The notes under the pieces are model-generated. The model saw only the letters and a program-made list of their open reading frames with translations. It had not been told where the DNA came from and ran no database searches. The position numbers and the translations under genes are program-made. Source: Tubulanus polymorphus (Eukaryota > Nemertea > Palaeonemertea > Tubulaniformes > Tubulanidae). From it: 64,000 nt of DNA. Location: NCBI RefSeq assembly GCF_964204645.1, contig NC_134025.1, forward strand, positions 2,733,001 through 2,797,000, given 5' to 3'. Shown here one piece after another: positions 864 through 48,020 of the stretch. Position 1 is the stretch's first letter. Each line of letters starts with the position of its first letter.

Positions 864-3800
864 ATGCTTCAAATATTTCCTGAAGTCGATGGCATTATCA
901 AAACCGAGGATTTACACTTCGATACGTGTTGCGATTCGTCGCCCGATGAATTTTACGGTTACAGCAATATCGATAATGACAACGATATAATGGATTCTAA
1001 AGACAATATCGACGGTTATGAAATAACCGATTTGAACTTTGATTCGGACAATTCGAGCAGCGGACAAACCATAGACGGCTCGTTGATGATGACTTTGAAA
1101 CGTAGACGCAGTTCTGATAGTATACTTTCACCGACGAATTCGACGACTCTGAACAATTCGAGCACTTCGCAATCGCCCCCTTCTTATAGACTCGAACAGG
1201 ATAACAGCAGCGATACAGCGGTGCCGAAACGTTTATGTTTGGTTTGCGGTGATATAGCTTCCGGTTATCATTACGGCGTCGCTTCCTGTGAAGCTTGTAA
1301 AGCTTTTTTCAAACGTACTGTACAGGGTAAGTTCAGTTTTGAAGTCGGTCGCTCTCGAATATCGGTCGCGATCGCGCTGGTTTGAACGGGGCCAGATCCA
1401 TTCGAGCCGACCGTTCGCGTTGGTGCCAAATTTGGCCCGACTAAAATTGTCGGACCAAATATCAACACTGGTCAAATTATTCCGTGCAAATTTTAGATGG
1501 TTTACCTCGCTTGCCACAGAATCATTTTGATTCCATGAAATTCACTTAAGTTTCTAATTAGGCACGGGCCAGATAACAGTTCGATCCTGGATAAAACTCT
1601 GATAGGTCAAGGTAAAATATATACATAATGTGATTATTTTCTAGGTAATATAGAATATACTTGTCCGGCTAGTAGTTCATGTGAAATCAATAAACAGAGG
1701 CGAAAAGCATGTCAATCGTGCAGGTATCAGAAATGTTTACGAGTTGGAATGCTGAAAGAAGGTTTGTGTTTCATCAAATTTTTCATTATCAGTCCATTAA
1801 GAGCTGCCAACTGTTACTCATTCTCAGTAATTTGTTACTATATCTTTCATTGAAAAATACTAATTTGACATGTTCGATACGTACATAAATCATGACAGAT
1901 GTTACAGAGCGTTGTTACACCATTGATCAACTTGTTACTGAAAGCACCTTTCTTAGGTTGCTAGCCTTAGTCTCTATAAGGGTCATCCTAAAATGTCTGG
2001 ACTGTGCCTTAGTACGAAGTAATAGTTTTTTGTCGTCTTATTGCACACTAACATTTCGTTTTTGTCGTTTATTGATAAACCAGAATATATATATTGCGTA
2101 TTGCAGGTGTAAGACTTGACCGCGTTCGAGGTGGACGACAAAAATACCATAGAATTGATAATGGATCTACATTTCCAACAATCCCTGTATTCCCACCCAA
2201 AAAGAAGGCAGCTGAAGGTATCTATTTATACTAACGTTTTGACATTTATTTCGTTATCATTCGTGGCGACAATTTCACCGAATGTTTTTATCGGGGTTTT
2301 TATTTTTTCAGAAAATAAATTATTGCAGACTTTACTGAAAAATGAAAGTGATAATGCCTCGTTGAGCGTTGCAGCTTCTGCAAACCCTGATCTCCCCGTG
2401 GACAAGCTCAAACTTTACTCAACCATCTCATCATTAGCTGATCATGAGTTAGTAAATATGATTAGCTGGGCAAAATCCCTACCAGGTACCTCTCAAGCTT
2501 TACAGTTCTATTGTGGCTATTAGCAAAAATACATGTATTTTTGCTATTAGTTATTATGAAGCTATTATATTATATAATTATATATATATAATTATATTAT
2601 TAATAATATATAATTATATTATATTTAAGCATATATTATGTAGCTATTATCACTGTATGTTTGTTCTATTAAATTTTCACTGGTGGTAATATCAATTAAC
2701 GCATTACGCCGACCACACAGTGAGCACCACACCATCACGATTGGTAGAACACTATATCCGTGTTGACGCGATGAGGAGAGAATCCCACAATGATAATAAA
2801 AAGTCCGAAAATGAAACTTCGAGATAGTAGTTTATTTCAACGTTTCGACTATATCCTAATAGTCATCTTCAGGAATAATGTTAAAACATTCGGACTTTTT
2901 ATTATCATTGTGGGATTCTCTCCTCGAGCACCACACCAATACACCAGTGACGAATTCATCTAGAATTTGAGGCAAATTTTCAAGCGTATTTGTCGCTTGC
3001 GTTTTTTTATATCTAACACATTTTGTAATTGAGTATCAATTGTAGTATTAGGATTACCTGATTTAGTATCAATGCACATGCACATCCCAAAGCTCTTTAT
3101 GAAATATATATTTTTTTTTAAGTGACTGAACATAAAACTTCAAATAAAAATGTTTTCGATTGATGTTTTGGATATAATGGGCCTATAGCAGTGCATTTAG
3201 CTACATAGTTGTGGCTACTGTGCGGGGACATTGATGCCGAAAACAGTTTCCAGTTGCGTACTTGTCACTAGTGCGTGGCTGGCTATACATGTTGTTACTG
3301 GTGTTATACATTTGGTGTTTTTTTTGCAGGATTCCTATCTCTGTCATTGGCCGATCAAATGAGTTTACTACAAGAGAGTTGGCCGGACCTTTTAGGGTTG
3401 AACATCATCTATCGATCGATTCCGTACCGAGGTAAAATACATTTCGCTGGTGACTTCAGTTTGACGTTAGAGGAAGCGGAAATGCACAAAGCGCCGATGG
3501 AATTAGATATGCTGACGAGAAATATGTGTAAAAAGCTGACTGATATGAGATACCTGAAAGAGGAACACGTTTTATTGAAAGCGTTAGTGTTTTTAAATCC
3601 CGGTAAGTTGATTATCGTTGAAATAACTCGCAGATTACGTATTTAACGAAATCACGTGTTCATTTCTCGTGTATTTTCAGATGTCGCCAATTTGGAAAAT
3701 CGCAACCAAGTCCAAAGACTTCAGGACCAAGTGCAAGACTCTCTGATCGATTTTGTCCAAACGAATTACGCCGACATCAAACGTGTCGGTCATCTATTAC

Positions 3801-3940
3801 TATTCCTGCCGATGCTCAGACAACAGAAACTGTATACAAGGAGTTTCTGGTTCGGTATGAAATCCGACGGACGCGTGCCGATGCAAAAACTCGTCTCAGA
3901 AATGTTAGATTCAGTTTTGAACTCTACACCGGTTATATAA
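864..3940 (+). CDS. ERR: Estrogen-related receptor (NR3B-type nuclear receptor), 465 aa
   Basis: Orphan nuclear receptor transcription factor of the ERR family, expected in the nucleus and binding an extended half-site. Coding exons: 864-1326, 1645-1761, 2107-2217, 2312-2485, 3330-3602, 3681-3940. All junctions are GT/AG and keep frame, giving 465 aa. The two-zinc-finger DNA-binding domain spans about residues 125-190: CLVCGD, P-box [11 protein letters not shown], then [20 protein letters not shown]. It is followed by [20 protein letters not shown] and GRQKY, the C-terminal extension typical of ERRs. The ligand-binding domain (about 235-465) has the WAKSLPGF and [10 protein letters not shown] signature and ends in the helix-12 region [15 protein letters not shown]. 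The start is ATG 864: an in-frame stop lies at 813-815, and a GTG at 825 is not a plausible eukaryotic start. The N-terminal region is acidic and Ser/Asn-rich and holds IKTE, a sumoylation-type consensus. Intron 4 carries a foldback element. The P-box and C-terminal extension exclude steroid receptors proper. Confidence 0.96.
1345..1530 (+). repeat. Candidate dispersed repeat in ERR intron 1
   Basis: This part of ERR intron 1 resembles 32628-32755. Both contain gatgccaaatttg- or ggtgccaaatttg-like sequence, then about 110 bp later cgcttgccacag followed by a/c-atc-a/g-ttttgat. The order and spacing are similar. This is a visual match only; the boundaries are uncertain and no terminal repeats are evident. 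Confidence 0.35.
2533..2640. repeat. AT-rich palindromic low-complexity tract
   Basis: A stretch inside ERR intron 4 made almost entirely of interleaved ttatatta/taatatata segments, able to fold on itself. No gene content is seen. Confidence 0.6.
2773..2925 (-). mobile_element. Foldback element A with hammerhead-like core (ERR intron 4)
   Basis: A perfect 37-bp inverted repeat (2773-2809 and 2889-2925) encloses about 79 bp. On the minus strand, from 2873 to 2838, the interior reads CCTGAAGATGACTAT, then TAGGAT, then ATAGTCGAAACGTTG. The conserved CTGANGA and CGAAAC boxes are separated by a perfect 6-bp hairpin (GACTAT/ATAGTC). The same layout recurs in elements B and C. No coding capacity is present. 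The element lies wholly within intron 4 of ERR and should be spliced out. Confidence 0.75.
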
Positions 3941-5910
3941 TACAGTCGATCACACGTATTGATGGTGCCTTCACACGTAAATCAGTACATCTATAGTACA
4001 TGTGTATCTATGTGTGTGTCCGGTTTCGTACGGAATTCATGTGATCCAGTGATGCGCACACTCTGTGTTTCATTCAGTATAGTTACTGTTGTAAGACAAT
4101 AGATGGGCGGATCTTGGAAGTTGGAGAAATTTTGAAGGTGGGGTTTAGAAGAAAATGAAGGGAATTCCTTGGATGAAGCCGACAGTCACAAGCATGGTTC
4201 CACCATTGCGGTTCGATAAGAAATCGGAAAAGAAACAATTTTAACGATCTTTGTCTCGATGAACAGGACGACCTCGACTGGCAGGCAAGAGTTCAGACCC
4301 CAAAACCACTCCCTAGATCTGTCCTTGATGAATACTATTTTTAAGCTGATTAGTTTATGAACAAGGATTTTTTAGTTAAAGATTTATTAATGCCGTCGTA
4401 GTTTTACTAGAAATCTTAACATCTGGTGCTTCATATTCTTTTTAACTTTATTCGTTGAGTGATTTATTCTAGGTTTATCTTCGTTTGATATTGTATATTG
4501 TATTCAGATAGAAGGATGATGCTATGATAGAAGACAAATGCTTGAATTAAACAGTCATCCAGCGTGTGAAATGTCTCGACTCATAAACCGGTTGAAAAGA
4601 GTGTTTATTTTTGTTCACTAGACAGAACACTCGTCTGTTTGTTAGTTATAGTCTAGAGATGAACCCTTTCATATAGTTCAAAGACCAGGTATTTGACTAA
4701 CGCCAAACCTGACGGAACGAAAATGATTTGAAAGCTGTAGGAGCTTGAATAAATTCTAACCTTAAGTCTCACGGTTTATCGACATTATTCTGATAAATGA
4801 TATGAACTATTTTTTGTCGATTGAATGGAATTCCTCGAGGGAATTTCATTCGACTGATGATAACATCGGGCAAATCGCTACATGACAAATTCTGTTGCTA
4901 AGCAACTTCATATTAGCGCTGGCAGCTGCTCTCGCGTCGGTTTACATTCATTTTTCCGAACAGTAACACCGGTAGTTGATTGTTCGGTGACCGTTGTTGC
5001 TATGGTAATATTGCGGACAATAGAGTGAAAGTTCCGTACTTCTTTTGTAGTTCGGTAATCAGAAGGGATGGTGACGTGGAATCCTCTGGCAGATTCATTC
5101 TAAAAAACAGTCGTTATTATCTATAAGCTGAATGATAACTGAAGTATTTTATCTAGATTTTAACGAAGAACTGGAAATGTTTGTGTTCTTCACTGCTATT
5201 TTTAAGTACGCACGTGATTTATGATCGGTTATGGAAATATACTGAGTATATTTCGGTTTAGATTTTTAGGGTTTGTTTAATTGCGATGAAAGATGATTTA
5301 GCTGCCCGTTTAGGTTTGTTTTGTATATAGACTGTTGTTTAAGGTTATGATGTTTCTGAATGTCTGAATTCTAATGAATCTAATCTGTGTACGAACCTGC
5401 CATTGATGTCATTTGTACATCCCCTTTCATGTGATAAGATATGATGTTTCAGTCTATTGTGCCATTAAAAACCTGTAGATTTGTTGTAATTTTCACGATG
5501 CTTGTTTTAAAGATCATCAAAAGTAATTTTCTCATAGGTCCTCGTATTAGGGTATAATGTTATGATACTATACCATAAGATTTATCATTCCAGACAGTGT
5601 TATATTCATAAGGATTTGAAAGAAGTTGTTCGAAGATCGTGAGATTGTGATATGAAGTCGATTAGATTTTTAATAGTGTATTTTAAACAGCAACAAACTA
5701 TTGCATGAATAATTTTAATCCTATATCATCATATCATAGCAGTAAGTTTTCACGATTGAATGTGACAAGAGAGTACATGGATACTGTATGGCATTACACA
5801 AATAACATTGGAGCCCCGCAGTATTTTACTGGAATTTGTGTTGCACGAATCTCAAATCTGTAATAGGTATTCCAATCCATTACGAAATTTAATGTGTAAA
5901 CGCACACGGT
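3941..5910 (+). other. ERR 3'UTR and downstream non-coding sequence
   Basis: No open frame with a recognisable product. A canonical AATAAA at 4748-4753 lies about 810 bases after the ERR stop and is a plausible polyadenylation signal. A short hairpin (gaatggaattcc/ggaatttcattc) at about 4824-4851 lies just after it. The true transcript end cannot be decided from sequence. Confidence 0.4.
4748..4753 (+). promoter_or_regulatory. Candidate polyadenylation signal for ERR
   Basis: Canonical AATAAA hexamer downstream of the ERR stop codon at 3938-3940. It is the first canonical hexamer I saw after the stop. Use is inferred. Confidence 0.35.
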
Positions 5911-6030
5911 GGAGGTGTTTGACTCGCAATCAAGGGGTGGTGGTTTGAATCCCGGTGAAACCATGCTATTCGTCAGGATATGTATACTCTGACTGAGGTG
6001 GTTTCCACATTACCGGAAAGAAAGAAATAT
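5905..6030 (+). mobile_element. tRNA-derived SINE
   Basis: The segment has a tRNA-like head with an anticodon-arm-like hairpin (TTGA CTCGCAA TCAA) and a pol III B-box match, ggtttgaatcc, at 5942-5952. An unrelated body follows (atactctgactgaggtgg, then ccacattaccgg) and ends in an A-rich gaaagaaagaaa tail. The tRNA-like head, short unique body and A-rich tail are the standard SINE arrangement. The 5' boundary near cgcacacggtgg is approximate. No target-site duplication was identified. Confidence 0.65.
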
Positions 6031-7247
6031 CAAATATGTAGGAGTAAATATAGCATTCAGTAACCAGTACATAAGATTCTTGGACAAATTCCAATCCGTC
6101 TGTTCTTTCATGTACAAAATCAGCTATTTATTTTCATATTATAACACATTTTCTTTTGGATAGTGTAAGGATAGATTATGTTGTTGGTGATGTGTGATGT
6201 AATTGTTTTTTGGTCTTGTGTTAAATTTGTATGAACGCTGTCTGAATATGAATGTTAAAAGTCTGACATTTACAACACAACCACTAATCATTGCCAAGGC
6301 CATTCCATAGAAATCAGATAACGGTGGCTTATTGAAGGCAGGCATAGGGGAGTTTTGACATTATGAAATGCCAACTACTTTGTTGAGTCTGAGAAAAGTA
6401 CTGATAGTGCATTGTATTTTATAAATCTTAAATTGAAAACAAATTTTTTACAACCGAAGTTTTACTGTTGTTACATATGACTATGTATAAGATAGATAGA
6501 TGTATATGAGAAAATCAGGTGTAGTTTAATGACCTACTGGTATTGAGTGTATGAATCGAACCCTCATCTCCGGGTTTCACTGATAATTATTAAATTATCC
6601 AGACTTCAAAGTATTAGAAATAAGAGATTCATTCTACTAGTTCGCACACTGTGTTTTAAATATCTAAGAACGAATTAAATTGATAGTTTGATAGATTTGA
6701 GTTGTGCTTTGTTTAGGAGAAAAGATTGTGTTTCGTAGTGATTAGATGAATTCTATATATTGTTCTAGATCTTACGATGTGTGCCAAAAATAGGATCTCG
6801 CTGTATGGTATCTATCATCCACTGGCTCAACTTCATCATCAAAGCCAGTACTAATTTTTATGAGATGTATATTTTTTCGCAATTACTCAATGACGTATAC
6901 ATTGTTACTGCCATGACTGAATAGCTATTTGAGCTGAAATAATCTCTCTCTCTCTCTCTCTATCAATGATGACTGACCATTGTAAAAAAGCGAGTGTAGT
7001 TGATAGATTGATAAAATTGATAGATCATAAAGATTGTAATAACATATACTAATAATATAAATTATTGTTTCCATAAAACTACTAAATGCAGTCAGTGCAT
7101 GCAGAGTTAAATCTTGTTGTTAACAAATTATTGTTATTGATTAAATCAGCATGGCTGAAATGTTTATATGTATAGATGAATTGTTTTGTTGTTCTGATTT
7201 CTGGAGTTTCTTTTTCTCTGGTGGGCGAGGATTGCAGCAGAAAAGGA
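6031..7247. other. Intergenic sequence with (TC)n tract
   Basis: No gene supported. A (TC)9 microsatellite lies at 6943-6961. A minus-strand B-box-like string (rc gggttcgattc) at about 6546-6556 hints at a second, degraded tRNA-like repeat, too decayed to delimit. Confidence 0.4.
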
Positions 7248-7463
7248 ACAAATTTTCAGGCCCCAATATCCGAGTTATTAGGATAAGTCTGTTACAGGTA
7301 TCAATCAATCTGCTGTCTGTTACCATCCCTTTATCATCTGTAGTGAGTAGCCTTGACAAATTTTCAGGCCCCAATATCCGAGTTATTAGGATAAGTCTGT
7401 TACAGGTATCAATCAATCTGCTGTCTGTTACCATCCCTATATCATCTGTAGTGAGAAGCCTTG
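7248..7463 (+). repeat. Two-copy 108-bp tandem duplication
   Basis: Units 7248-7355 and 7356-7463 are nearly identical, differing at about two positions (cctttat/cctatat and gagtag/gagaag). Both start acaaattttcaggcccc and end in gccttg. Because 108 is a multiple of 3, open frames run through both copies on each strand. No known protein domain is visible, so this is called a repeat and not a gene. Confidence 0.9.
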
Positions 7464-10400: not shown

Positions 10401-10804
10401 CGAAGCAAAAACAATCATCATACGTTATTTATATATGATACATTTACATGAATTCAGTTTTTGTTTAAACTACGGATTACATACATGCGTCATAAATGAG
10501 ACTTTGTGCTTTTGATGTTTTTTTTTTTTGTGGTCATACTTTAAAAGTCTCAACAACATCAAACATAATGATACTACCGTAGATATAAATACACAGTTTA
10601 TGCTCTGAATGCAGATTTATCAGTATTTAATCACGTCTTACTGAGGTACAAAAAATTGCTTCCGTTTCCCAGCATCTGGGAATAATGCGCAAGACATTAG
10701 TTTCCCACACTTTGAGTGAGTACCGCTATCAGAGAAAAGTGCAATTCTAAAACTTCATTATTCGTCATCCGCTATTGTTTTATAGTCTCTGCGTTCATTC
10801 AATT
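7464..10804. other. Intergenic sequence, no gene seen
   Basis: AT-rich sequence between ERR and the 3' end of Rab4. Open frames up to about 90 codons occur but show no domain, splice pattern or codon bias that would support them. The distal part, up to 10804, includes the Rab4 3'UTR on the minus strand. ATTAAA (complement of 10626-10631) is a weak candidate polyadenylation signal for Rab4. Confidence 0.45.
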
Positions 10805-13585
<2,781 letters not shown>

Positions 13586-14164: not shown

Positions 14165-17100
14165 ATGGACGGGTGCGCGGTAACTGTCAATGTAGAATTC
14201 ACTGGTGAAGTTACAGTTCAAGGCTTACCAAGTATGTTATGTATGAACTCTGATGTCACTTGGCAGGATTTCGAGATATTGGTAAGTCATCTACCTATTT
14301 ACTCTATCTATTTCAATAATTAGTATCTACTAAATATCTAAGTTTTAGTAGACGAAAGGGAAGTAAATACGTAATAGAAAACAGTGTCATTTGAAATAAC
14401 TAATTTCAGTACCAGATTCAATTTGTTTTCGACAAACAAAAGGGAAACTTCTCTGACTATGGCGGTATTGTTGACACCATCCCTTGGTTTTAAATTCTTC
14501 TTTTTAATTTTTCTTGAATATGAAAGGTTGCGAAAAGTTATGATTGTGAAAAAATTTTAGTGAAATACTACGATGAGGAAAATGATATCGTCACTATAAG
14601 TACTGATGAGGAATTGAAAGAAGCGATGAAGGTGAGTTTCTCCTTTAAGGCTGTCGTAATTGTCCAATGATGATCTCGGATAGAGTTAAGTCTGTATTCA
14701 TTATATTCTAGTTTGCCGTGAAAAATGGAAATTCACTTGTGATACGTGTGACTCCGGTGAAGGAAAATGACGAAAGCGAAAAGATCAGTGAAGAGCAAGT
14801 AGAGATTGATTTTTCGCCCTCAGAGAAAAGGTTTGTTTATGTTTAGCATTTAGCTTTAGGGTGTCTAACCTTTTACAGCATGTATTAACCTTTTTCTTAT
14901 CAGATATTGATTTTGTATTTGTTTTAATTTCCTAAGGCCTCTAGGTTATCATTGGTTTTTTTAATCATATTTCATACTTGTCTTATGATAAAGTATCATG
15001 TGTTAAAAATACCTTTCTGACTCACTGCCAACATTGAACTAACAGTCTTATGTTATTGACTGGTTTGTTTGTTGTAATAAGGTATTACTCATTCTGACTG
15101 AAATTTCTAATATATCACGATGTCTAATATTTATCCTTAGGTTAATACTGAATCCTTTATTAAAACATTGTCTCCTGGCACCAATTGTAAAGAATGATTT
15201 ATTTGTATTCTGATAATTCATGATATTTTCACAGTCAAGTTAATGCGATGGAACAAGAAGAAACTGGTGAACGAACATGTGGAAATATAATTACCCAGAT
15301 TACTGAGAGTAATGGTGACAGAAGCTCTTCATCAGAGGTAAATTTTATAAACATTAGTTATTAATCAGAGTAGTCTGAAATTAGCAGCAATCAACGATTG
15401 ACTGTGGACATCGAGGATCCTCCACCAGATGTACTTGTGTGTATGCAAAAAAATGTCATCGCATTTCTTCAATCTTAGATCCAATGAACGTCTATCTGTA
15501 TATTCCTCAAATTCTATGAATGTTTCATTTTCTTTGAGCTCTAAAGATAAATTTTTAAAGAGTTAAGATATACGAATTGCCTAATGTTTTAAACACATTA
15601 AAGAAATTTACTTTTGAATCCATTATTATATTATTATTACTATTAATTCTGCGGGAAAACTCTATTTATTTGTACTCGACTTATTTCATTTAAAGTGACT
15701 TATAAAGCCTAGCGCACATCGACACTGCGATTGGAGACAACTAGTTGCAAGGCAGTTTTCGGCGCATGAGAGGAACTGGCTGGATACGATCAGTTGCTCG
15801 AATGTGTCGATGTGAGCGAGCTTACGATTGGTAAGCGTCGATCTATCTCCAGTTCCAGCCAGTTGCCCATGTTCTACTTTTGAGCAACTGGTTGTACTCA
15901 ATCGCAGTCATATTCGTCGATGTGCGCGCTCTGGATCTCGACGATCGACACGCGCCATGCAGTTGCTGCAACTGACCGGTTGTAACTAGATTTCGATGTG
16001 CGCGGGGTAATCGTTCGGTAGCAACTAGTTGTCTCCAATCGCAGTGTCGATGTGCGCTAGGCTTAAGTCTGAAGTAGGGCAGGGTGCTATTTCTATAACT
16101 CATGTTTATAATTCTATGGGTTTAGACAAAATGTAATATCCACTAGAATGAATACATGTATTCAAATAATTTGATTCTGCAGGTTTATTTCCAAGATATT
16201 GTAATGCCGAAAAAGAAAAGTCGATCATATCATTCTCGTATGATGCGTGATTGTCATTTGTATCCGAGAACGAAATCATCGCATAAAACGCATACTTCAC
16301 ACTCGCCGTTTAACAAAACGGTTCTGTGTGACTCGGAGTCCGGTGAGAAAGCACCCGACATGGAACCTAAACCACCTGTTTGGTTTGTACGATACATGGA
16401 AAAAGTAAGTTGAATTGATATTTAAATCATATACAAAACGAAATTGTTTTCAGATTTCCTATCTCCTCCAATCCTTAACCCTTTCAGTGCTGACTAGTTA
16501 ATACCCTAAAGTGCTAGAGATAATTTCAAATTTAAAAAAATTTCCACCCTAGTGTGTTGAATAACAGGAATACCACTATAGTGCGTCTACACCGCAGCGA
16601 GGTGTATCATTAGTTACTAGTATTTCACTATGTTTGACAGATGCTGCCTTTTTTCAAGAGAGATAATTACTAATCACATCAATACACCGCAATGCGGTGT
16701 ACTCGCAAAATCTATCACTGATTATACACTGCGGTGTAGACGCACTGAAAGGGTTAACTGGACTTAACTGTGCTGGTCCCAGTTGGTCCTACTTAGGCGA
16801 TGTTTCCTGTGTATGATCTGGCAACTGTAGTAATTATGATTTCAGTTTAAAGAGCAACTGTCTCAAGACGTCTCATCGAAAGTGACTCGACGAGCTGTTC
16901 GTCAGATTCTGAAAGGTTTAGAGGGCGCTGTCGTCCACACCGTGGCCGGTAATAAACGTAGCGTTGAAGAACCGACTAGCACGGAGTCGATATCGACAGA
17001 ACAACGTAGGTCGATGGGGAAAATCTGTGAGAAATTCACCGAAACAACATATTTGTTTACTTTCTCCTTTGCATATCAAATCAACAACCCTTAACCTTCA

Positions 17101-20100
17101 GTCTCTAGTCAATTGATTTTATCTGCTGGTTGGTCAGTGAGTCATTTATTATTGTCTGCTGTATCTTAAGTCTAAAGATAAATGACAAAATAAATATAAT
17201 ATAATTATATGATATAATTTGAAAGTGGTTAGGTTTACTTATATTCTAAATTAGGATACATGTGCGGTAAACCTTACTGTTCACATTTTAGATCTCAAAT
17301 TTAGACAATTTTAACTAGCCTATATATTCTTATTTAGGTTGTTTATGGCAATAGATTATGATGATTATATCGGTTATTTTTCAGCGATGTACTGTCATAC
17401 TGGAATCGTGTGCGATTGTTGTGAACAAACTATTGTTGGTGTTCGTTATAAGTGTGGGTACGTATTCATCTTTATCAATCGTATGATCTTAGTTGAAATT
17501 AGTCCATTCTCCGAACTGTAGAACTGGTTACGATATTGTTCCGTAATCTAGAGTCATCGCATCGACATAATGTTGGGGTGTTTGATTGTTTTACAACTCA
17601 CTCTATTTTGTTTGTAGGAATTGTGATGATTATGATCTATGCTCTCAGTGTGAATCAATCGATGATGTTCACGATCCTGAACACATATTCTTGAAGATTA
17701 AACGTCCGGCTTTGATGGTCGGTCGTAAGAAGGGACGCATGGTTTCGATTTTGAAGAAATCTCTATACGCCGGTGATGATGACGCCGAGGAGGACGGTGA
17801 AAAAGAAAAGCTAAAGGAGGCCAAGAAATTGGAAAGGTATTCATCGTGTTGTTATTCGTCAGACGAGTTTTGAAGAGCGATTTGTTATTATTCCGATTCG
17901 TTATTTTTTCGAAGGATGCAAAAGAGGGAAGCCAAGCGTAAAGTGAAGAAAGAAGAGAAACTGAAGCGAAGTTGGGACGGTCAGAAAGAGAAGCCACGGA
18001 AAAAGGAAAAGCTTGAAAAACCGATTCAAGAAAAAAGGTAACGAATTGTTATCGGATAGCATTGTTTATAAACTCGATGTATGTGACTGTACTGAGTAAG
18101 TATTGTATTACAGTTTGGATCTGGACGCTAAATTCGTTAGAGATGAAACATTCCCCGATGGCACGCAGCTTCCGCCTGGCACACGGTTCCTGAAGAAATG
18201 GCTCATGAGAAATACTGGGAACATCGCGTGGGACGAGACAGTGAAGGTAAACCATTAATTTCATGCTATATGACTATATGTTTAAGAGAACGATAACTAC
18301 ACTCAAACGTGGTGAACGGATAATAAGATAAAAACCCACTATCTACAGATTAAAAGAATTTAAAAACAAGAATTTATTCATTCAATCTAAAATATATAGA
18401 ATACACGACGTTTCGATCTCACCCTAGAGATCATCGTCAGGTGTGAGATCGAAACGTCACGTATTTTTATATATATTTTAGATTGAATAAATAAATTCTT
18501 GTTTTTAAATTCTTTTAATCTGTAGATAGTGGGTTTTTATCTTATTATGTTTAAGATCCTGTGAATGAAATGCAATCCAATGAATGCATGATGCTGGTAC
18601 CTTACACAAAAATAACTGCCTTTTATCACTCATTGAAATTGTTTGATATGTATTTTAGTTGTGCGTCTTGTGGGGTACATTACCACCTGTTACTCCCGAG
18701 GTATCGGTACCCGCCCTCGAACCAGGAGAACAAGGTATCATTACCGTTGAACTCGTTGTTCCTGAACATTCTGGTAAGACTCATGATAAAACACTACAGT
18801 TGTTGTTCATTATCCATACAGAAAAATGAATGATATTTACCATTCAACTAGGAATGTACCAAAATCACTGGAGGTTACAGAGAAATGGCTTCTCTTTCGG
18901 GCATAGAATTTGGTGCAACATAACTGTCTGTGAGCGCGAATCATTGGAAGCAAATCAAGCCCATTGCCTGGAAATTGTCAAAAGTAACCAGGAGGTATTA
19001 CCGGTAATTGATTTACTCATCGTGTGAAAATCTGTTTTCATTTAACAAAACCTATGTATGACTATATGAATACTTGTTATCGCAGGAATGTAACAGTAAT
19101 CAAGAGAATGGAGAGAGTGAACCAAAACCAAACAAACAAGACGTCGCTTTGTCTCCTTGCAAAGAGCTTCTCTCGTTTGAAATGTTGGACATCAACGATT
19201 CTCCGAAAGTGAAAGTAGCGAAGGCTTCACAAACTGCAACTCCTAATAACACACCACTGGGTTAGCAATTATCTGTAGATCTATTACTCGTCTAACTATA
19301 TTCCACCGAAGGCTCTCTCTTCACATAAAGCTCAAGGTCCAAAATCAAAAGATTTCTGGCAGTGTCCTAGGAACTTCATGAGGTGGTTTCTCACTTCATT
19401 AGGTGGTTCCTAGTATACTGTGATTTTGGATGGAGACAGTAATGTGATGGGGCCAGTTACACTGCTGTGACTTAATAAATCTTAAAGCGGTCTTAAATTC
19501 TAAGACTGGTCTTTAGTAATTTGATTGGCTATAGAACTTAGATGGTCTTAGACTGGTCTTAAGTCTAAGCAATTATTTATATAGAAATGTAACTGCTATT
19601 ACAGATTTGAGTCCTCCTAAATCACCGGCTCCTGAGTTAGATATTCAACAGCTCTCAAGTTCAAGCAGTGTTGAAGTTGTGTCCGATTCGTACAAGGAAT
19701 GCGATTCAGCGACTATGTCGGCGTTAGTGCAGGAACGCATGGCTTCACTCGGACTACGACCTGGTATGTTTGTGTGTATATATAACAGTAGGATTATGTT
19801 CTATTCGCGCTGTGATTATTGATATATCGTGTTTACGTTTTAGATATAGACGTGATGTCTATAAGCAGTTGCTCGGATGATGATTCCGATACGGAAAATG
19901 ATTTCTTCATCGTCCCTCTACCGGATTGTTTTAATACATCGTTGCCTCTAGCGCGATCAGTTGGAGCTACAGGATCACAAACTAATTCCGGTAAAATTCT
20001 TTTCTTGTCATATCAAATATTAGCTGTTTGACTGTTCCTTTCATCAGGGTCCCTACAGTTTTTGATTCCTCCTGAACAGAAAATGCTTTTAAAGTTACTT

Positions 20101-31070: not shown

Positions 31071-31077
31071 CATTTAC

Positions 31078-31104: not shown

Positions 31105-37202
<6,098 letters not shown>

Positions 37203-38378
37203 TTCCCATAGAGATGTCGAACGAAAACTAATTTTATCATTCAAATAAGAGGAACACATAGTATTTCTAGTTGAAAATTAGTTCGTATTATGTTACCCTA
37301 TAACTAGTGTCACTTGAACACGAAATAGTATAAGTGTTTTGCAGACCCACGTTTCAAGTATTGCTTTCAAACGTTTAGATTTTTCAGCCACATGCGATAG
37401 CTTCTACGTGACAAAAAATACTGCATAACATATCGCATTACTTAGAAATACATATCACGTAGGAAGTAAAAGTAAAATAACTCCTACTTGTTACATGTAT
37501 ATACGTATAGCCTTTCAGATAAACCGACAAAGTTTCCGAAAAAAATTATCATCATATCCATCCGTTGGTCAATGAACCCCTTCCTCGGCTTGTTTAGGTT
37601 GGTTGTATGATACGTTGAATTGATAATGCACTTGGTGAAGCCACCACTTCAAGCGAGTGTTTTTTAGAATAAACCCTGAACGTGTTAGATATCAATTCAA
37701 TAATTCATGCATGGAATTACTGCGGTCGCTGTTGTATGGGAAATTTGAAACTTTACAGGTTCATTCGCGTTCATACAATGCCTAGAATCGGAATAATTGC
37801 CACACATATACATCAGCACGACGCATAATAATTTCACGTTTCGCTATGGATGTATAAATAATGAATGAATTTCTGTTTTCATGTATACATTATAAGCAAA
37901 TTACGAATGATTTATTCAAGTCTAATGAGATACCTATCATTATTATTACATAGGTAATGAACCAAACAGTAACGTACAATGAACTCTATCTCACGCTTAA
38001 GAAATAGAGTTAATGATGTCTTACGTTCAAATTTGTAGATCCAGGGCCGTGCCTACAAAATTTATGGGGGGCAGGAGAAACCTGCCCCCATAAATTTTGG
38101 ATAGGTGCCATTTTGCATCCTTTTTTGCATGAACTGCGCTTTTTAAGTTTCTCAGTTTTAAATTTGTGAATTTATGAGTTTATTTGTAATTGAATATAAT
38201 TCCATAACTTTATTTCTCATAAATTTCAATGATTATTTTCGAGAGGATGTGCTTTGCGTCATCGATGTATCGGGTCTAGACTGGTTGCAGGTCAATTAAC
38301 TTCAATTGTCGATATATCCAAAATCCAAAATAACATAATCCATCGTAAATATTATATAATTCATATTATATTATCTAT
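37203..38378. other. Gene-poor sequence with a short palindromic repeat
   Basis: No gene. At 38041-38110 the strings cagggccgtgcctac, aaaatttatggggg and cccccataaatttt form an inverted pair of about 14 bases around a short loop, next to a CAGGG start of the sort found on hAT-like elements. No matching right end was located. Confidence 0.4.
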
Positions 38379-38450: not shown

Positions 38451-38883
38451 TTCATAGTGACGATATTACTATCACTTTTGAGATTATCAGTAATAGATTA
38501 TTCAAGAAACAACAAGATATCTGAGGCACCCCTTTGTTATAGAAACACTTTGTAGACATTCTCTTCTAGCCTGAGGAAGTTATAAGAACTACTTCCCACG
38601 GGGGAGAGTACCGCTCCTAATGCATCGGAAAACTGCACTAATTGAGTCGCGCTCATTACATAACATTTTAAGGTCTATACCGATACGTGACGGAGCAAAT
38701 ATCTTTTGGAAATGATTAATCATTATACGGAAATAGATGTTCATCACTTCATGATCATCGAGTTTCCTTTATTCATTCATGCGGTCCCAATATCATTATC
38801 ATGTATGATGATGATGGAAGATGTTATAAACCAGACTGTAATTATCGCGATAGACGAACTACACACGAATACACTACAGTGGT

Positions 38884-39143
38884 TAAATGAAGAAATCCCA
38901 CACTTCGAATTTGAAATTATACTATCAAATTTATTATTATTTATTTTTTATTGCTTGGTCTGCTAATCTTAAGTTTTGACACACTGCTTTTATTTTAGAT
39001 CCTGTGAGTTTATATGCTTTGTAACTTGTTTTTCTGGTCATTCCACCTGATGATGGCTGTTAGTCAACAGCCGAAACGTTGTGGTTTCGTAATAATGAAT
39101 TTGATAGTATAATTTCAAATTCGAAGTGTGGGATTTCTTCATT
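38884..39143 (+). mobile_element. Foldback element C with hammerhead-like core
   Basis: The left arm (about 38884-38936) and right arm (about 39090-39143) are near-perfect inverted repeats of about 50 bp; both contain the gaagaaatcccacacttcg segment. Between them at 39046-39081, on the plus strand, lies CCTGATGATGGCTGTT, AGTC, AACAGCCGAAACGTTG: CTGANGA box, perfect 7-bp hairpin (GGCTGTT/AACAGCC), CGAAACG box. Downstream, CG...CGTA could close a 2-bp stem III before a UA cleavage-type site, and TCATT/AATGA could contribute to stem I. No protein is encoded. Confidence 0.8.
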
Positions 39144-39225
39144 TATCTACAGTTTACACGGATTATAGTGTTTATTCGACAACTAACTACAGCGGTTCCC
39201 GGTATCAATGGGCTTATACTTTCTT

Positions 39226-39598
39226 CTTTAGATTCTCAACTGTCATCCTCCCCCGGCAGGGATTCGAACCTGATGGCATCGAGATTGCCACGGCACGAAA
39301 CCCTGCCATAATCGACCGTGTGCGCAGATACATGCGCAGTTCAGATGATGTGATTTTTAGCCAATCAGAAATCCCGTTTTATTTTAGCCCGGGTTTTCCC
39401 ATTTATAGTTCTTCCTTGAAATTTGCCTCAACGATTATACAACGAGCAATCTGATTGGTGCCGCCAGTTTTCGTTCGGAAAGCTGCGCATGTACCTGCGC
39501 ACCCGGTCTAATGATGCAGGGGTTCGTGCCGCGGCTGAGTGTAGCGATGCCATCAGGTTCGAGTCCCTGCAGAGGGAGGATGCTCAACTGTGCTAGAA
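39226..39598. mobile_element. Large inverted repeat with tRNA-like (B-box) arms
   Basis: Left copy (minus strand, 39226-39340) and right copy (plus strand, 39483-39598) are diverged inverted copies. In each, the direct reading is gcgcatgtacctgcgcac, then a ggcaggg-like string, then ccatcaggttcgaatccctgcc (right copy gagtccctgca), then ggaggatg. ggttcgaatcc is an exact pol III B-box. Inner flanks continue the symmetry (ccaatcaga / tctgattgg). GGCAGGG and CCCTGCC can pair, but spacing is too short for a normal tRNA, so this is tRNA-related repeat DNA and not a functional tRNA gene. Confidence 0.65.
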
Positions 39599-42500
39599 AA
39601 TCGTAAGCGAAACGACCATGTCAAATGGTTCGATGGCGCGCTGTCACGTGAGTCCAGACCCCGGATGTCAGATGATCGGAATGAAGAAACGAAGTTTTTG
39701 TTTCGTTAACGATCACCTAATCCCGATGAGACCATTTTATGTAAGAGTTGTAGCAGCGAATGACACGATTTAATCCGGGATCCTGTCAAGCGGACCTGAT
39801 AATGAATCTTGATTTATTTTCCTTGTACCTCACCTCGGTCGGCGCCAATTTTTACCGTTCCATGCCTTCAAGAGCTGAACACACAATTTTGTTCGGTTAT
39901 TTGCGCTACATTCCATCTGTAATTGAAATTTTCATTCTGTCGTGATTGCTTTCCCGCTGAGCAGTTCATTTGCGTACTTTCAAATAACACGCTTTCGCGG
40001 AAAAGAGCACGGCCGCGAATTATTCCCGACTCAATTTTCCTTGCCTTATTAACACTTGAACAGTGTACGGCCCTACAATCGCTAGCAATAGAATGTCGTA
40101 TGTTCGTTTATCAGAGAATGATTTCGAAATGTAGCAGAAAAGTGAGACGTGTGTATTAGACCCTCTTCAAGGTTGTTCGATGTCTATAGAGTCGAATGGT
40201 ATGTGGAAATATAGACATCTGCGTTATATTGGCCGGATTCCCGCCTGTTCCGTTCAGCCAGTTTTATTGTGTGTGGTTATTACTTACCTTCACGTTTCTA
40301 ATTACAAGTGATTAATTGAAAATACACAACATTCAGTGATCATTCCATTTATTGTATGTCGGTGTGACGTGTTTGTTCCCGCGTGCTGGGGATTTCGCAA
40401 ATGGAAATGAGCGTATAATTAATGGAAATACCCATCGTGGCAACTTGCGTGTTGATCTCATTGAGAAACGGCTTATGTTTCTAACAAACGGGAGAAAATG
40501 AAACTTCTCTTTCCGCTGTATGCATTCCTTCAGGGGCTCATTAACGTTTACAACACTACAGACAAATTCTACGTGGAAGTTATATCAATTTTCTTCGAAA
40601 CAAAAGTATACGGTTTGTTTTACAGCCAGCATGGAAACGTGACTTCGGGTGTTAAAAAGAATGATTCTAGATGAAGCGATTACAGTTAGACGGAATCAAT
40701 TTTTTCATCTTGTCGTATATGGTTTTCTGTTTCTAGTCTCTCGACGATAGATTTTCGATATTGCGCATGATGTGCTATTGGCAAGCTACGCTTCTATCAA
40801 GTGTTTACCAAGTAAAGCCATTTTGGGGTATATGAACTTTTCCCGTTTACCTTTTTAAATCGATAAACATTTTTTTCCCGGTTAGAAATGTTCATCGCCT
40901 GTCGCGTATGAATGGCTCTTTACATTTCATTTAATGAAATTTGATTCATTTGAAAAAAACGTATATATTAAAAAACGTATATTTTCTACTCGATGTTTAC
41001 ATAATTTCCGTCTGAATTTTCGTTCGGAGAAAAAAAATCATCAATTCGATACTTCGTGCATATATGTACCATATGTTGTGACAGTCGCGCCCGCTTATTA
41101 CATATATTAAAAATTTCTAGCTTTCAGAAGCAAAAATGAATGATTCGTGGCCTGAAAACGATGATTTATTGGAAAATCTCTACACCGCGTATCTGATATA
41201 GGAGCCGCTCGTTTCGATTGGAAATCAACGCGCATTTCAGAAAAATAACATGACTGATGGTATTTGCAGGACAAATAATTATTAATGGGCTATTTTATCC
41301 CAAAAGTATAAATTTCTACGGCGTAAGAACTTTGTACATCGGTTTGTAGTGTGTCATGGGTATCGCACCATTATTGCACTCAATGCATGCATTTTATTGA
41401 CTTAAGACGCGTTATCAATCAAGAGTTATTCTAAACGAAGGTTGAACTAACTCCGTCCTGAAAGAAGAGCATCCAGGCCTCCCGTCAACAGAGATTTTTT
41501 ATTAGTGGATTTTACGGAGATTTCGAGTCCGATTTCCGAGAATTCTTTCCATAAACACGTATACGCACGGGCACAATTTATCGTTATCATATTTTATGTG
41601 AAAGGTAACACGTTAACGATCGCTCATGCATGCTACTGCACGAAGCGCATACAATTCAAATATATCTATAAACCCTGAATTTGTTCAGAGTTTACAGTCG
41701 GCATCAGATAAGGCGTATCTGTTTTTCGAATAAGTACTTTTATTACTGGACATGGACGTGTCACTCGAAGAATTATGAGTTTTGATTTTGCTATTTGATA
41801 ACCAATCACTTCCTGTTTATGTGCATCATTTTCTGAGAATTCAGTAATTCATCCGCCATCGTGCTCCGTCGGTCATTATCATTTCTGCTCTCGAGTTCTG
41901 CCTGGTCACGAACTAAATGATCAAGTTCAAGTATCTAATTGAAAGTCTAAATCTCTGACGTGCCACACTCAAAAGTGCATGATGTAAACTAATCCTGATT
42001 TTGACATCTCTGCGCGGATTCATAGTTGATGATAGCCTCGGATTGCAAATGCAAGACAATTCCCTCTAACAAAAGCATTATATCATATTACAATAAGATA
42101 TTACTCCAATCGCACTAGAAACATTTCGAACGCTGTATTATTATTATTATTTCTGAAGTTAAATCAGCGTTATTTGACTTATGAATTTTCATTGTGTACA
42201 CATAATTTCAAACGTAGCTGGCACTGATATTGTGTGTTCAGCAGCTTTAGACATTGAAGATGATGTGAATATATTCGGCGATGTTATCAGTTTCAGCCGC
42301 GGTCCATTGATTTCGAAGTTTGTCATATGAGATGTTAGAATAGAAATAAATCCAATAAACACTGAAATTGATTATCGCACAAAAGCTGAATCTTAATTTA
42401 CAACCATGAGAATTTGTGTGCTGTTCAGGACAGCTTTCTTTACCGCGAAGATTGATGATTATGTAAAATGTAAATCAATTCTTTAATCAATTGGTGGTTG

Positions 42501-45500
42501 GCATGTTTTCCCTTCTTGACCGTGGTATAAAAGACTACGGGTGGTAAAATGTATTCACAAGGACGCGATAACATTTCAGCCAATACACGTCCGGCCTCGT
42601 ATGTATTCATTTACAACACGACATAAGAAAGGATTGTGGAAATTACGGGTCTTAAATATCGAGTCACGAAGTGCGAAGGAAGTCATTACTCCTACCTCCA
42701 GGCACATTTTGAATCTGGGTTCGTAACCTTATTACAAAAATTACCGCCGTAGAAAAAGACGACCACCCGAATAAATCGCTCGTATGACACGTATTTTACA
42801 TCAGGATATCGATAAAGATATGGAGATTTTTAGATTTTTGCAGCTCTTGAAGAATCGATTGGCACTCAATAACCTGCAAAAGCTGATAGAAATAAGTCAG
42901 AAAAACGGTCGAGTTACCACTAGATTTTAAACATTTTCAGCTGTTTTGTGATCTCGATGTATACGTGACATCGAAATTTTTGTGTAGCAATAAAAAAAAA
43001 TTCGATATCGAAGTACATTTTTATGGCTTATTTCTTCTGTTCTCGTGGCTTTGTTTAGGTTGCTCAAATTCATGCAAATGTGGTACTGAATTATTCCTGT
43101 TTGACAACGAGCACGGTCGGTGAGACAAGTTAGTTATTAGCTCAATATACCGGCCACCATTTAAATGTATAGGGAGGTTTAGCTGTTGCTTTAAATCATG
43201 AATATTCAATGAATAGAAATTAATTTTTCCCGGTCGAATTTCAGTCCTTGACTGCATCCTGAATGCGATATGAGGTAATGTATGGAATCGTATAGAGTTA
43301 CCGTGTGAGCTCGGTGTATGATAAATATCTATATATGTTTGTGTCGAGAGTTAATAAAACTTATTGGTCCATTATTCACACTGTCACATAAGCTGATATA
43401 TAATCGACTGGATGGAAGATTGATGTAACTACTATCCGCAGGTAGCACACACTTCTCAGACATGATAAAACAAAGATCCGATGAATCGCTAATTATTCAT
43501 ACCATACCGAGAAGGTTATACAGCGTAATAAAAGCCTATCTCTGTCTTCGACTGCTACACAACTGATCTATTGCTATAAAACTGATCTATATCCATCACC
43601 ATTCGTTTCGGTGCATTCTGTATGATAACGTCAATTGAGATGACATCTAAACCGAGATGATACCGTACATGGTAAGCCAGGTAATTTTGTGGAGCTTCAT
43701 TTAGTTGCAAGTGATACGACGGTTTAGAAGGGTCGCTGAGTGCGTGAAACGCTTTAACCACCAGTAATAGCGCCATAGGAAAATGATGCCAATATGAACT
43801 CGTAAATTGATACAGAACACTCATATGACAATTCTATTACTAATTAACACCCCGTGGGCCCCAGTTTAGAATGATTCAACTTGTTCTAAATATTAGAAAT
43901 TCAATTTTCTTTCATTTCTACGTTGATAGCAGATATTCATTTCAGATGTTGTTTTGCAAATTGGGAAAAAATATGTGCAAGAAAAGCTGCGACTTGGCAG
44001 TCGTATGATAAAATAATGCAACATATTGACAAAACATCATTAACGTCAGCATATTTCTTTCCGGAGTGAAATCAGTCAAGTGGAATTGTATCGCCTGGTT
44101 CAATGAGCCACCATTATCCACCCATCAGTGATTATTACACTTAATATCCATATCGTCTAAAAACTGTATTTCTTGTTCATAGCGCGAATGGAAATCGAAC
44201 CGGGTCGTATTCCAGGCCCCCAAATTTCCTGTCCATTAATTTTCACACCCAGAGCAGATACATTTTCACGGTTTCTCGGCAGTTCTTGTATACGTGTTCA
44301 GGCAAATAATCAGTTTTCGTTAGTGCCACCGCCTGATTACTTTAACCTTGAATACTTGAATAGATGATATGATTTGTGTTTTACAAACCACTATTGCGAT
44401 ATACCTGGAAAATCTAATATCTCTAAATGTATATATCAGACACTGGGAGATGAATTTGCAGAAATAAAACTATTCGACAGAGCTGTATTGCTTCAAAAAT
44501 AACAAATTCAAATCGATTACAGTTGAATCATCGAATAGAGTTGGATGTGGCTGATTTGAATTTAAATTGAAAACTGTCGCAGTCTTGTCATTATTCATTA
44601 TAGTATGTGTTTAGTACTGCGATGGTAAATTACAGGTTGTCTTGAGAGAACAGTTCAAGGCTATACATGCACCAGTTAATTTAATTGTCAAGATTGACTC
44701 ATTTGAAGCATCGTTGATTACAGATGTAATTGTGTAAAAGCAGATTTGTAGAAACATAGATTCTGCTCATGCACACGGGATAATTTTATAACACCTCACT
44801 TTAGCCAAACTGCCAAAATACTACAATCAAACCCAAACGCTAATTTTGCTTGGTCGTTCCATTTTCCTGGGCTAGTCACCTCTAGGAAATGTGTTCCGCT
44901 GACGGCCATCTTGAAATCAGAAGTTTTCATTGTTCGTTATCCATGTGTAAAGAATATGGATTCATTCATAAATGTCACACGTTTTTAGCAACATAAGATG
45001 AAACCGATTTCATCTTGAATTACAGCGAGTTTTCGGCGATTTTAACTACGGATGTTGGTGCATTGCCAAAGTGGCTTTTAAAGTATAGATCCCGAAGCGC
45101 CTCGGTTCGGTTTGAAGACAATAATCAATTTTCATTTAAAAATCACTTGACATTAAAACGTTGTTTATTTTTATAGACAGGCCTCCAGTTAGATTTATTT
45201 TTCATCTTTCATATTCTGACGAACAACGCGATTGTTGTTATTCTGAAATCACGACTATCTTTAGTAACTGTTCAAGGTACGTGGTTCCCTGAAGGTTAGA
45301 TAGCACAGCATAGTAAAAATAAATGAAAACTAAACTGAAAAAGTCGGAGAACGTTTGATACAACGGGCTCTCATTTCGATAATCGATAATTTGAATCGAT
45401 GAAAATGGTAAAATCTTTTATGTAAATTCTTCACCAGAACTGTGTATAATCTTGGAGTTAATCAAAGGTGGGATAATACTTTTCGACAGACTTAACATTT

Positions 45501-47880
45501 GTCGATTCAAACGTCTTCTAATCCCTTATTCAATCATGCATTATAGCTTTTCAAATGTGATTGGACACCATCGATTTCTGATTTAGTGTCACCACTCAAG
45601 ATACAGCTGCCATTTCAAGATACCTCTTGTAGCGATGTAACTGGATCACATCTGCAATGGTTATTATCAAATTCATTTTTATTATTTAGAAATGAACTGC
45701 AAAGACAGGAAAAAATCGATTAATTTCTCCGCGTGTTCTTTTACTTCTTATTTTTGTTGTATTTATGAAGAAATTCGATAAAAGATGATTTATACGATGA
45801 TCCCAGGGGCCGGTTAAACAACCTTGATAAAATCTTTTATCGCTGTCACTATATTTCGCATGTCACGCAAGTTGCCCGGGTAACTATGAAAACGGTAAGA
45901 CGATAATCATATTCGACTTCAATCCCTTGTTGATTATTTCAGCTATAAGTGGAACCAATTGGAATATCGAAAAGATATTATGTTAAAGATGACTCCTGTG
46001 TATACTCAGGTGCCGCACTCCACGCCTTGACGGCTAAAATTTTTGAATGCGTCTGGTGGCCCTCACAGCGAAAACACTTAGTTTGAAAGAAAAAACAATA
46101 GCAATATTTTGTATCAAAACAATGAATATCTTCCGAGACATCATCATCGACAGTAAAATGTCTTGAAGGTAATTAGTCTCTGAATTACTATTCTGCTCAA
46201 TACCACTGATATCTGGTTATTTCTAAGATGAAGCATGATTCTAGATTTTGCACCGTTATTCTTATCGAACGCGTATTTCAGCATAGCGGGTGCGCATCGG
46301 AAATTTCAATAAATTGACACCGAATTGTAAACGATTTGATATAATTAGGCTGCGTACTTAGGAAAGGGTAGGGTACCTACTTAATTATTGCCAAAGGGGC
46401 ATCCCATACGCTAGCCATAATTCGGTCAATTGTTAGTAGAAACGTTATGAATCTAAACAATTAACCGCTGATTGAATTTCTTGCTAGCGTTCCCTGGTTC
46501 CATTATGACACACGACGATTTCAAGGACGTTGATGAAATCTTCCACATTTACATAATTATATCTTACTAATAATATCAGGAATTAAATGATGTGACAGAT
46601 GAACATCATTGAACATCATTCTACGCGTCGATCGAACTGCAAATCATAACTTGTCACAGCTCCATTTGCTGAAATGCTGACATACGCAAAAAAATTCTAG
46701 TGTTGAAAAATATTAATTTCATAGCCCGTTTACCGACGAGTTGTCAAGATAGGACTAATAACATACACCCAACAATGCTCAAGTGGGACATCAGCTACTT
46801 CAGTAGAAATATACATTGCCGCGATAAAATAACATAAGATCATAGTCATATCACTTGTGTTCGCTTGAAAACTCTCCAGTTTTCTATATTAGACACGCAA
46901 AATTAATAATCAGAAACTTAATTGCTCTCAACGAAAAAGGACAAAGGTCTGCGCTTGCTTATTAGAAGATCCTCTTCCAACCTCAAAAATGAGAACTTTT
47001 TATACGTTCTACGATAATCGCTGTGGTATTGTTTGATGGTTGGTCGTCATATGTTCTTGATATATTCTTGGAACCGACATTTTTTCTACTCTTTCGCCAT
47101 GACACGTTTACTTTTATCGATGAAACGACAAATCTCTTTCATGGAAAAGTGAATGGATTACTTAAGCGGCAATTTTTATCCAGACGGCGATACCGGAAGG
47201 GGAGATTAACCGGTTCTGGTGCGCACTACGGCTTCATATCGATACAGTCTACATAACTATGAAATATATTATTATAAAGATATGAAACTAATTGAAATTG
47301 AAACTATGCATTAATGAAAAATATGCGTGCAAGCTCATGAGGGTGATTTGCGTGCAATTCTTTCATGCTCCACATGATTTATACTTCGAGATTTGCAACA
47401 TTTTAATGTTTATGGCAATTTTTGCTTTGATGTTTTAATGCTATCGGGAGTTATGAAGTGCTTCTGAAATTACGAATTAATAATTGAATATAAGCATTTA
47501 GTGTACACGACAGCGGGTATTTTGTTTATCGGCGTTTATTTATACAGAATAGAATTACCGCCGTATCAACCCTGGATATTGAATTTTCAGGTAGAGGAAA
47601 CCAACGATGACATGACAAAGTGCTCTCTGATTACATCGTGCCTACTAAATCACTGATATTACGAGGCATCGATGATAATACATTACAAGCAACATTTTAA
47701 AAGCAATGATAAAATGAAAACCACTTGGTAATTAATGAAAAACGATTTCTTAAAAATGGCGTGATGCTAAAAACTCATAAAGCTGGGTATCACATTATTC
47801 TTCCCTAGTGTATGTAGTGTCAGAGGCTCGTATTGCTTGATGTGCTTAAAGTCACATCACTCCTGTTTCGTATAACATCT
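39599..47880. other. Gene-poor sequence, no gene seen
   Basis: No exon with recognisable domain content, no RNA gene and no clear transposon end was found on either strand. Open frames of 60-90 codons are at the frequency expected by chance in AT-rich DNA. Confidence 0.4.
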
Positions 47881-47890
47881 TACTGTCTAA

Positions 47891-48020
47891 TTTAGATCCT
47901 TTGTTCTGGATTTCAGAGTCCATAGTATACCTCTTTGTTGTAACTTTATTCTTGAAGATGTCATAGTCGAAACGTCACAACAGACTGCTCCATCAAGGAA
48001 ATATTTCGGACTCTGTTTTC
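47891..48020 (+). mobile_element. Degenerate element D with hammerhead-like remnant
   Basis: The order of sequence parallels element C: atttagatcct (47890-47900; element C has attttagatcct near 38992-39002), then ttgtaactt, then TTGAAGATG...GTCGAAACGTC at 47952-47976. The first C of the core is T here and the hairpin is only about 3 bp. A short inverted pair, cagagtcc (47914-47921) and ggactctg (48008-48015), flanks it. This is probably a decayed member of the family of elements A-C. Confidence 0.5.

Follow-up and report, generated by a model that had tools for sequence, protein, structure and literature searches.

Minimal type I hammerhead ribozymes of Penelope-like retroelements (PLEs) were reportedly described by Cervera and de la Pena in 2014 and by Lunse, Weinberg and Breaker in 2017. 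According to the available parts of PMC7761336 and PMC6155905, thousands of such motifs without helix III occur dispersed or within the pseudo-long terminal repeats (pLTRs) of PLEs, and they may cut as dimers. For the Anolis element PAc, of the Penelope/Poseidon clade, the available portion of PMC11167929 describes a pLTR-ORF-pLTR arrangement (ORF, open reading frame) with reverse transcriptase (RT) and GIY-YIG domains and a hammerhead at the pLTR-ORF junction; the enzyme cuts both strands of the target and extends them, begins copying at two adjacent internal positions of the RNA, by which the tail is defined, and takes uncut RNA as its template. The later insertion steps are called unvalidated there. 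In the Penelope families of Adineta vaga, the excerpt of PMC3846280 reports head-to-head inverted pLTRs with a 31-bp tail optional at one inverted pLTR, TATA and Inr-like pLTR motifs, and example target site duplications (TSDs) of 8–10 bp, some copies having none; self-priming on an antisense template is proposed and favoured as the source of the inverted pLTRs, their origin is left undecided, and the word hammerhead does not occur in the text. PLE hammerheads, inverted pLTRs, an optional tail and internal starts are, as far as these excerpts go, already in print. The present analysis concerns a 64,000-nucleotide stretch of the nemertean Tubulanus polymorphus (GCF_964204645.1, contig NC_134025.1, positions 2,733,001 to 2,797,000 of the forward strand), referred to here as the window, in which an original prediction made from the sequence alone had recognized four foldback sites, A to D, built around a hammerhead-like core.

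The reading preferred here, to which a probability of roughly 85 % is given, is that these sites are insertions of PLE 5' leaders in which each target strand would have been primed once, one at a short (S) and one at a long (L) site of the leader, with the two cDNAs joined head to head. The support that can be pointed to in the sequence comprises a covarying fold, the linkage of A and C to PLEs, two end sites, the pairing of one S with one L end in the samples, and the TSDs. The copies resemble the minimal PLE hammerheads in being type I, dispersed, devoid of a stem III loop and located in PLE leaders (PMC7761336, PMC6155905). They resemble PAc in element architecture, in domain content and in the position of the hammerhead and, as interpreted here, would share with it the two adjacent internal starts, the use of both strands and the uncut template (PMC11167929). 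Unlike in the described part of PAc, the core AUG opens a frame of 5 codons in A and of 19 in C, the family A ORF starts at site L, and the predicted cut lies 28 nt from the core AUG. The head-to-head leaders and the TATA and Inr-like motifs are also shared with A. vaga, in which, in contrast, copy number is low and self-priming is proposed; the tail here is approximately 37 nt long, every classifiable pair has it at one end and not at the other, and the TSDs mostly measure 10–17 bp (PMC3846280, in part).

Element A (2735..2925, minus strand) is a head-to-head insertion of a PLE 5' leader, with its long-site end at 2735, its short-site end at 2925 and an overhang of 38; it is bounded by unstranded 13-bp duplications at 2722..2734 (TGGTGTGGTGCTC on minus-strand reading) and 2926..2938, and the same locus appears in the genome set as L009. 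Its minimal type I hammerhead (2832..2879, minus) has C3 at 2872, H17 at 2839, a predicted cut at 2839/2838 and the stem II GACTAT/ATAGTC. Element B (18288..18545, minus; long end 18288, short end 18545, overhang 35) is formed in the same way by the leader of a second family between unstranded 11-bp duplications (TATGTTTAAGA) at 18277..18287 and 18546..18556; its hammerhead (18400..18447, minus) shows C3 at 18440, H17 at 18407 (GUC), stem I ACAC/GUGU and stem II GATCTC/GAGATC. Element C (38885..39185, plus), from a third family, consists of an inverted left arm to 38939 (short end) and a right copy from 38940 to 39185 (long end); these bounds were set by eye, as were the unstranded duplications at 38873..38884 (ACTACAGTGGTT) and 39186..39197 (ACTACAGCGGTT, one mismatch). 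On its plus strand, a TATA at 39011..39014 precedes the presumed start A at 39040 by 29 nt, with TCATT at 39038, and the hammerhead (39040..39087, plus) has C3 at 39047, H17 at 39080 (GUU), stem I CCAC/GUGG and stem II GGCTGTT/AACAGCC. The inverted arms span 37 nt in A (100 % complementary), 82 nt in B (98 %) and 64 nt in C (94 %).

The common plan that the original prediction had ascribed to all four sites, namely inverted arms enclosing TGANGATG, a perfect hairpin and CGAAACG, is seen in A, B and C, whereas D (47945..47983, plus) is a decayed copy in which C3 is replaced by T and the stem II hairpin is gone. A covariance model built from 35 copies found in the genome (268 Mb, 77 contigs) scores A at 68.9, B at 62.5 and C at 71.0 bits, A and C (but not B) being part of the training set, and D at 18.5 bits (E 0.011). 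The arms of D are weak by eye, and no exact bracketing repeat of at least 8 bp was found within 47701-48250. With their TSDs, the elements extend over 2722-2938, 18277-18556 and 38873-39197, slightly more than had been proposed. The observation that the core is conserved while the flanks are not is correct between A, B and C, whose flanks are unlike; it does not hold inside each family, where conservation extends downstream of the core. The arms differ because the leaders come from different PLE families, and the idea of a separate foldback element around a shared core gives way to one of different leaders set head to head.

The RNA fold was assessed on 35 distinct 48-nt copies, which align without gaps. 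They were picked by the pattern TGANGATG...CGAAACGTH, leaving out cores longer than 37 nt and using the 35 of equal length among 39 printed; of the core letters, the pattern left C3 and N7 free, and of the pairs all but the first of stem II, which makes nine. Stem II (six pairs) and stem I (four pairs flanking GUH) covary, with 89.4 % of cells paired (95.7 % in stem II and 80.0 % in stem I), a covariation score of 0.659 against 0.242 in shuffled and at most 0.176 in slid registers, and both-side changes in 93 cells against 27.9 in shuffles, distributed over eight of the ten pairs, one pair being fixed by selection. C3 is a C in 33 of the copies at a position that the pattern left free, and H17 is U or C in all 35, G having been excluded by the pattern. 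Across the core letters, more than 12 family A copies that a DNA similarity search retrieved show 100 % identity with the window copy. RNAalifold by itself recovers stem II only; single-sequence folding supports stem II weakly in A (z -0.7), better in B (z -2.55) and C (z -3.17) and not at all in D (z 0.94), and in B and C it also produces pairing across the core.

The CUGANGA ... GAAA ... GUH core of the hammerhead is present in these copies. On the other hand, stem II does not directly follow A9, one U standing between A9 and G10.1, and there is no stem III hairpin, since GAAACGUH leaves no loop; stem III could be reduced to the palindrome ACGU, which would close only between two copies. The covarying fold fits a type I hammerhead whose self-cleavage is a prediction. 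The original prediction had held that the unlike hairpins of A, B and C pair perfectly, that their changes are compensatory and that the boxes match the hammerhead core, while allowing that copies across the genome might lack covariation; the pairing is seen in all three, stem II covaries across families, and the core is accompanied by a covarying stem I that had not been described.

Throughout the genome, TGANGATG N14-34 CGAAACGT has 3758 exact matches compared with 2 for the reversed pattern, so the box pair is far more frequent than expected by chance. A pattern that does not demand the additional U has 4303 matches against 61 for its reversed control; among 100 listed places of this pattern ten lack the U, and by eye none of the ten has a stem II of at least 4 bp flush against the core. 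The extra U noted in the original prediction is indeed a property of intact copies: 41 of the 44 distinct cores in the retrieved loci pair better in the U-shifted register, none in the canonical one and three in neither, many of these loci having been retrieved with a U-containing pattern or query. The first 45 places of the box pattern comprise 20 in head-to-head insertions with TSDs, four in one-ended insertions and 21 decayed or undecided. A literature text search for CGAAACGT returned nothing useful, judged by title among the matches listed. Separately, motif matches in viral sequences (at least 80 loci) were set aside as chance, without a control; stem II had at most three pairs in 60 of 80, four in 12, five in six and six or seven in two.

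The connection with PLEs is provided by the coding frames. The ORF of locus L069, bounded by family C copies, carries RVT_1 (37.9 bits, E 2e-9) and GIY-YIG (23.9 bits, E 5e-5) domains, both above the Pfam cut-off, while L070, likewise bounded by family C copies, holds a PLE frame in which GIY-YIG remains below it (19.4 vs 22.6); the linked Penelope-like RT that the original prediction had named as worth seeking is thus present. A PDB sequence search gave one weak match to an RNA-directed DNA polymerase chain (E 0.006). The L069 protein matches 66 stretches of the genome (63 of 1559 candidates scored), including 11 open frames of 828–841 aa at approximately 62 % identity and, at 59 %, four stop-free ones of 817 aa. 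Frames preceded by the family A leader share about 62 % identity with the L069 protein over its length and are classed by this likeness rather than by Pfam. The 551 bases 5' of one such frame (L109) contain a family A leader with, by eye, TATATATAT at 92-100, TCATT at 121, the hammerhead C3 at 130, end sites near 229 and 266 and the first ATG of the ORF frame at 269. In a search with this leader, 17 of 40 scored copies continue past site L, and 15 of those are followed by a listed ORF match, the distance being exactly 210 nt in 13 cases (by eye). The remaining 23 copies stop at L, and some of them lie immediately 3' of a listed ORF. The leader is also found again 3' of the RT/GIY-YIG frame: pLTRs surround the ORF in L069 and L070, and family A leaders stand on both sides of frames. 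The leader, some 145 nt long in family A, holds the hammerhead fold and both end sites just upstream of the frame (A and C). Because they lie upstream of RT and GIY-YIG frames, A and C are, on sequence grounds, assigned as leaders of two PLE families; B is placed with them by its like ends and pairing. At C12:8927264-8936550, three consecutive open PLE frames, two on the minus and one on the plus strand, are separated by family A leaders and make up a large tandem/head-to-head cluster.

The 3' ends of the copies, measured against the window copies, pile up at two sites: 129-131 and 166-167 in A, 139-140 and 174-177 in B, and 217-219 and 255-258 in C. The spacing between S and L is approximately 35–38 nt in all three, like the optional 30–40 bp PLE tail. 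All 45 classifiable pairs of head-to-head insertions (31 from A, 8 from B and 6 from C) combine one outer end at S with one at L; they amount to 44 independent pairs, since L022 and L023 share one duplication. An independent and even choice of ends would be expected to yield about half of the pairs alike. The remaining 14 of 59 pair rows could not be classified (self-aligned window copies, decayed, other family, duplicates), and none was S+S or L+L. TSDs of at least 10 bp (10–17 bp) are present in 42 of the 45 pairs and in 0 of 881 re-dealt flanks. A reference-free search on largely the same loci, allowing overhangs from -70 to 70, gave 44 insertions after one of 45 rows had been set aside (a palindromic repeat in L077, overhang 0); the overhang is 33–42 nt in 42 of them, 30 in L077 and 55 in L069, the last becoming about 37 once an internal deletion of about 18 nt read in its short arm is considered. 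This set also took in loci of a further family (L075, L081). For the 40 best of 1650 family B candidates, 21 inverted partner stretches are listed, of which 20 end at S (128-133), one at 81 and none at L, three of these loci having already been in the earlier pair sets. Arms from the same insertion show no clear excess of similarity over arms from different ones: identity is higher within than between in 4 of 7 B, 3 of 4 C and 19 of 29 A insertions. Since every classifiable pair combines S with L, the rule speaks against self-priming and for one start of reverse transcription per target strand. Neither the literature searched nor the available text of PMC3846280 or PMC11167929 states such a strict rule, which older PLE papers may contain; it sharpens the older remark in PMC3846280 on a tail at one inverted pLTR.

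The inner ends are informative about the template. In 41 insertions with TSDs, 36 of 82 inner ends lie 4–10 nt before C3, and only one is within 2 nt of the predicted cut. In two families (A and C), a TATA stands 29–31 nt upstream of the A of TCATT. Because of this clustering and spacing, the pile-up is read as the RNA 5' end, and we infer a transcription start approximately 7 nt before the core. The rarity of inner ends at the cut site in turn suggests that copied templates would mostly be left uncut by their own ribozyme.

Under the preferred reading of paired leader insertions, a PLE RNA beginning about 7 nt before the hammerhead core would carry S and L near both of its ends. Reverse transcription from S or L of the 5' leader would copy the leader alone, while that from the 3' leader copy would include more of the element; this leader-only copying and the priming on both strands are what we infer from the ends. 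The enzyme would cut both target strands some 10–17 bp apart and prime on both, one cDNA beginning at S and the other at L before the two are joined head to head, and the ribozyme would usually leave the RNA uncut before copying. In the life cycle, the ribozyme may act in the processing of tandem transcripts, in uncapping or in release following reverse transcription. A more specific version is put forward tentatively, at somewhat less than even odds: an asymmetric double target-primed integration of PLEs with two start sites about 37 nt apart on the RNA or a ribonucleoprotein dimer, each used once and one per strand, in which the hammerhead stays uncut until both are primed and of which animal foldbacks may be the fossil record.

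Several observations weigh against this interpretation. The Rfam type I model proposed as a check, RF00163, gives nothing above its cut-off in the window or the genome (best 22.4 vs 34 bits), and a scan of five loci at E up to 5 yields no hammerhead, the sub-gathering matches being mostly to miRNA models; with its extra U, the core is itself not the canonical one. The data from which the S and L classes were defined are those that they describe, the loci were mostly picked by similarity to A or C, and the scored family B copies, as the best of 1650 candidates, are rich in L ends. One-ended insertions with the duplication right before the leader end at S in L096 and L097 and at L in L006, L036/L037, L048 and L108. 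Arm identity in family B is virtually the same within and between insertions (0.903 vs 0.898), which is uninformative about one shared RNA. The 46 of 82 inner ends outside the 7-nt zone are scattered: 15 lie further upstream and 23 further in, with 7 in between and 1 at the cut. The start is deduced from copy ends and the TATA/TCATT motifs of two families, A and C. Finally, the portion of PMC11167929 considered reports no difference in start site between strands in vitro and does not foresee a strict S/L rule, S and L being used once each in the paired insertions described here; its start lies 111–118 nt into the ORF, compared with about 95 and 131–135 nt (A, C) or 113 and 148 nt (B) from the hammerhead AUG.

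With regard to the hammerhead itself, it is possible, if rather doubtful, that a former ribozyme has become a conserved non-catalytic fold, the extra U turning it into an RNA signal for binding or start-site selection by the PLE protein. That only the U-shifted register pairs and that copied templates appear mostly uncut would agree with this. Nonetheless, the cut position still reads GUH and is still spanned by a covarying stem I, which a stem II signal alone presumably would not need. To judge from its title, one publication reports an additional nucleotide in the core of a viroid hammerhead. One or two extra nucleotides between CUGAnGA and the stems are within known hammerhead alignments in the available part of PMC10085705. 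In the part of PMC11167929 considered, the Anolis ribozyme is inactive without protein and its cleavage is not needed for insertion, but it does cut with the protein present.

An improbable explanation of the inverted arms is self-priming, by which one cDNA or antisense template folds back and copies itself. Inverted pLTRs with junction palindromes are reported in the excerpt of PMC3846280, and 17 of the 45 pairs look nearly symmetric, each half extending to the 5' edge of the leader. A fold-back copy cannot exceed its template, however, so its outer ends should match, yet they differ by about 37 nt in all 45 classifiable pairs; the 28 pairs outside the symmetric group have unequal inner ends, or one that extends further upstream.

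It is very unlikely that the copies are retrozymes, non-autonomous tandem units of approximately 170–400 bp with canonical type I hammerheads that spread by small circular RNAs. Their small size, type I architecture and non-coding nature are compatible with this, retrozymes are thought to borrow PLE enzymes (PMC7761336, in part), and same-strand neighbours of one family form short direct tandems at C2:10184994-10185427 (family C) and at C4:18102957 and 18103477, to 18103639 (family B). Among the 100 listed places of the box pattern, by contrast, pairs within 1 kb are head to head in 12 cases and tail to tail in none (by eye), no same-strand pair joins members of one family, and the sole same-strand pair joins two different families; the hammerheads are non-canonical, inner ends rarely coincide with the ribozyme cut (1/82), and the leaders of families A and C are part of a coding PLE. 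Least probable of all is a miniature inverted-repeat transposable element or foldback DNA transposon that moves without an RNA stage and in which a transposase recognizes the terminal hairpin as DNA, as inverted arms and TSDs might suggest. Instead of equal inverted repeats, the two ends show an offset of about 37 nt, TSDs vary between 10 and 17 bp, arms are cut off at varying points, and the coding partner (A, C) has RT and GIY-YIG domains; nothing points to such a transposon, no search for a transposase having been made.

Beside element C, a second foldback at 39244-39582 of the window has arms of 38 nt (92 % complementary) and 53 nt (83 %). Its outer part on both sides resembles the T-arm end of a tRNA (GGTTCGAGTCCC), and it perhaps represents two tRNA-derived short interspersed element ends set head to head; tRNA calling found none there. 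A perfect 44-nt inverted repeat with 272 nt between its arms (15705-16064) is not matched by the hammerhead model. Elsewhere in the window, a long TA and CA/GT microsatellite of about 0.85 kb (approximately 36350-37210) creates spurious long frames on both strands, and a frame at 825-1385 contains the start of a nuclear receptor DNA-binding domain, which we take to be estrogen-related-receptor-like.

A single genome that holds thousands of copies and readable TSDs makes models of PLE insertion testable by counting ends, and the one-short-one-long rule favours coordinated priming on both strands. Leader-only insertions would account for motif copies far outnumbering the PLE coding frames found, and the extra U, which is kept in intact copies, makes catalysis by this variant of the hammerhead a directly testable question.

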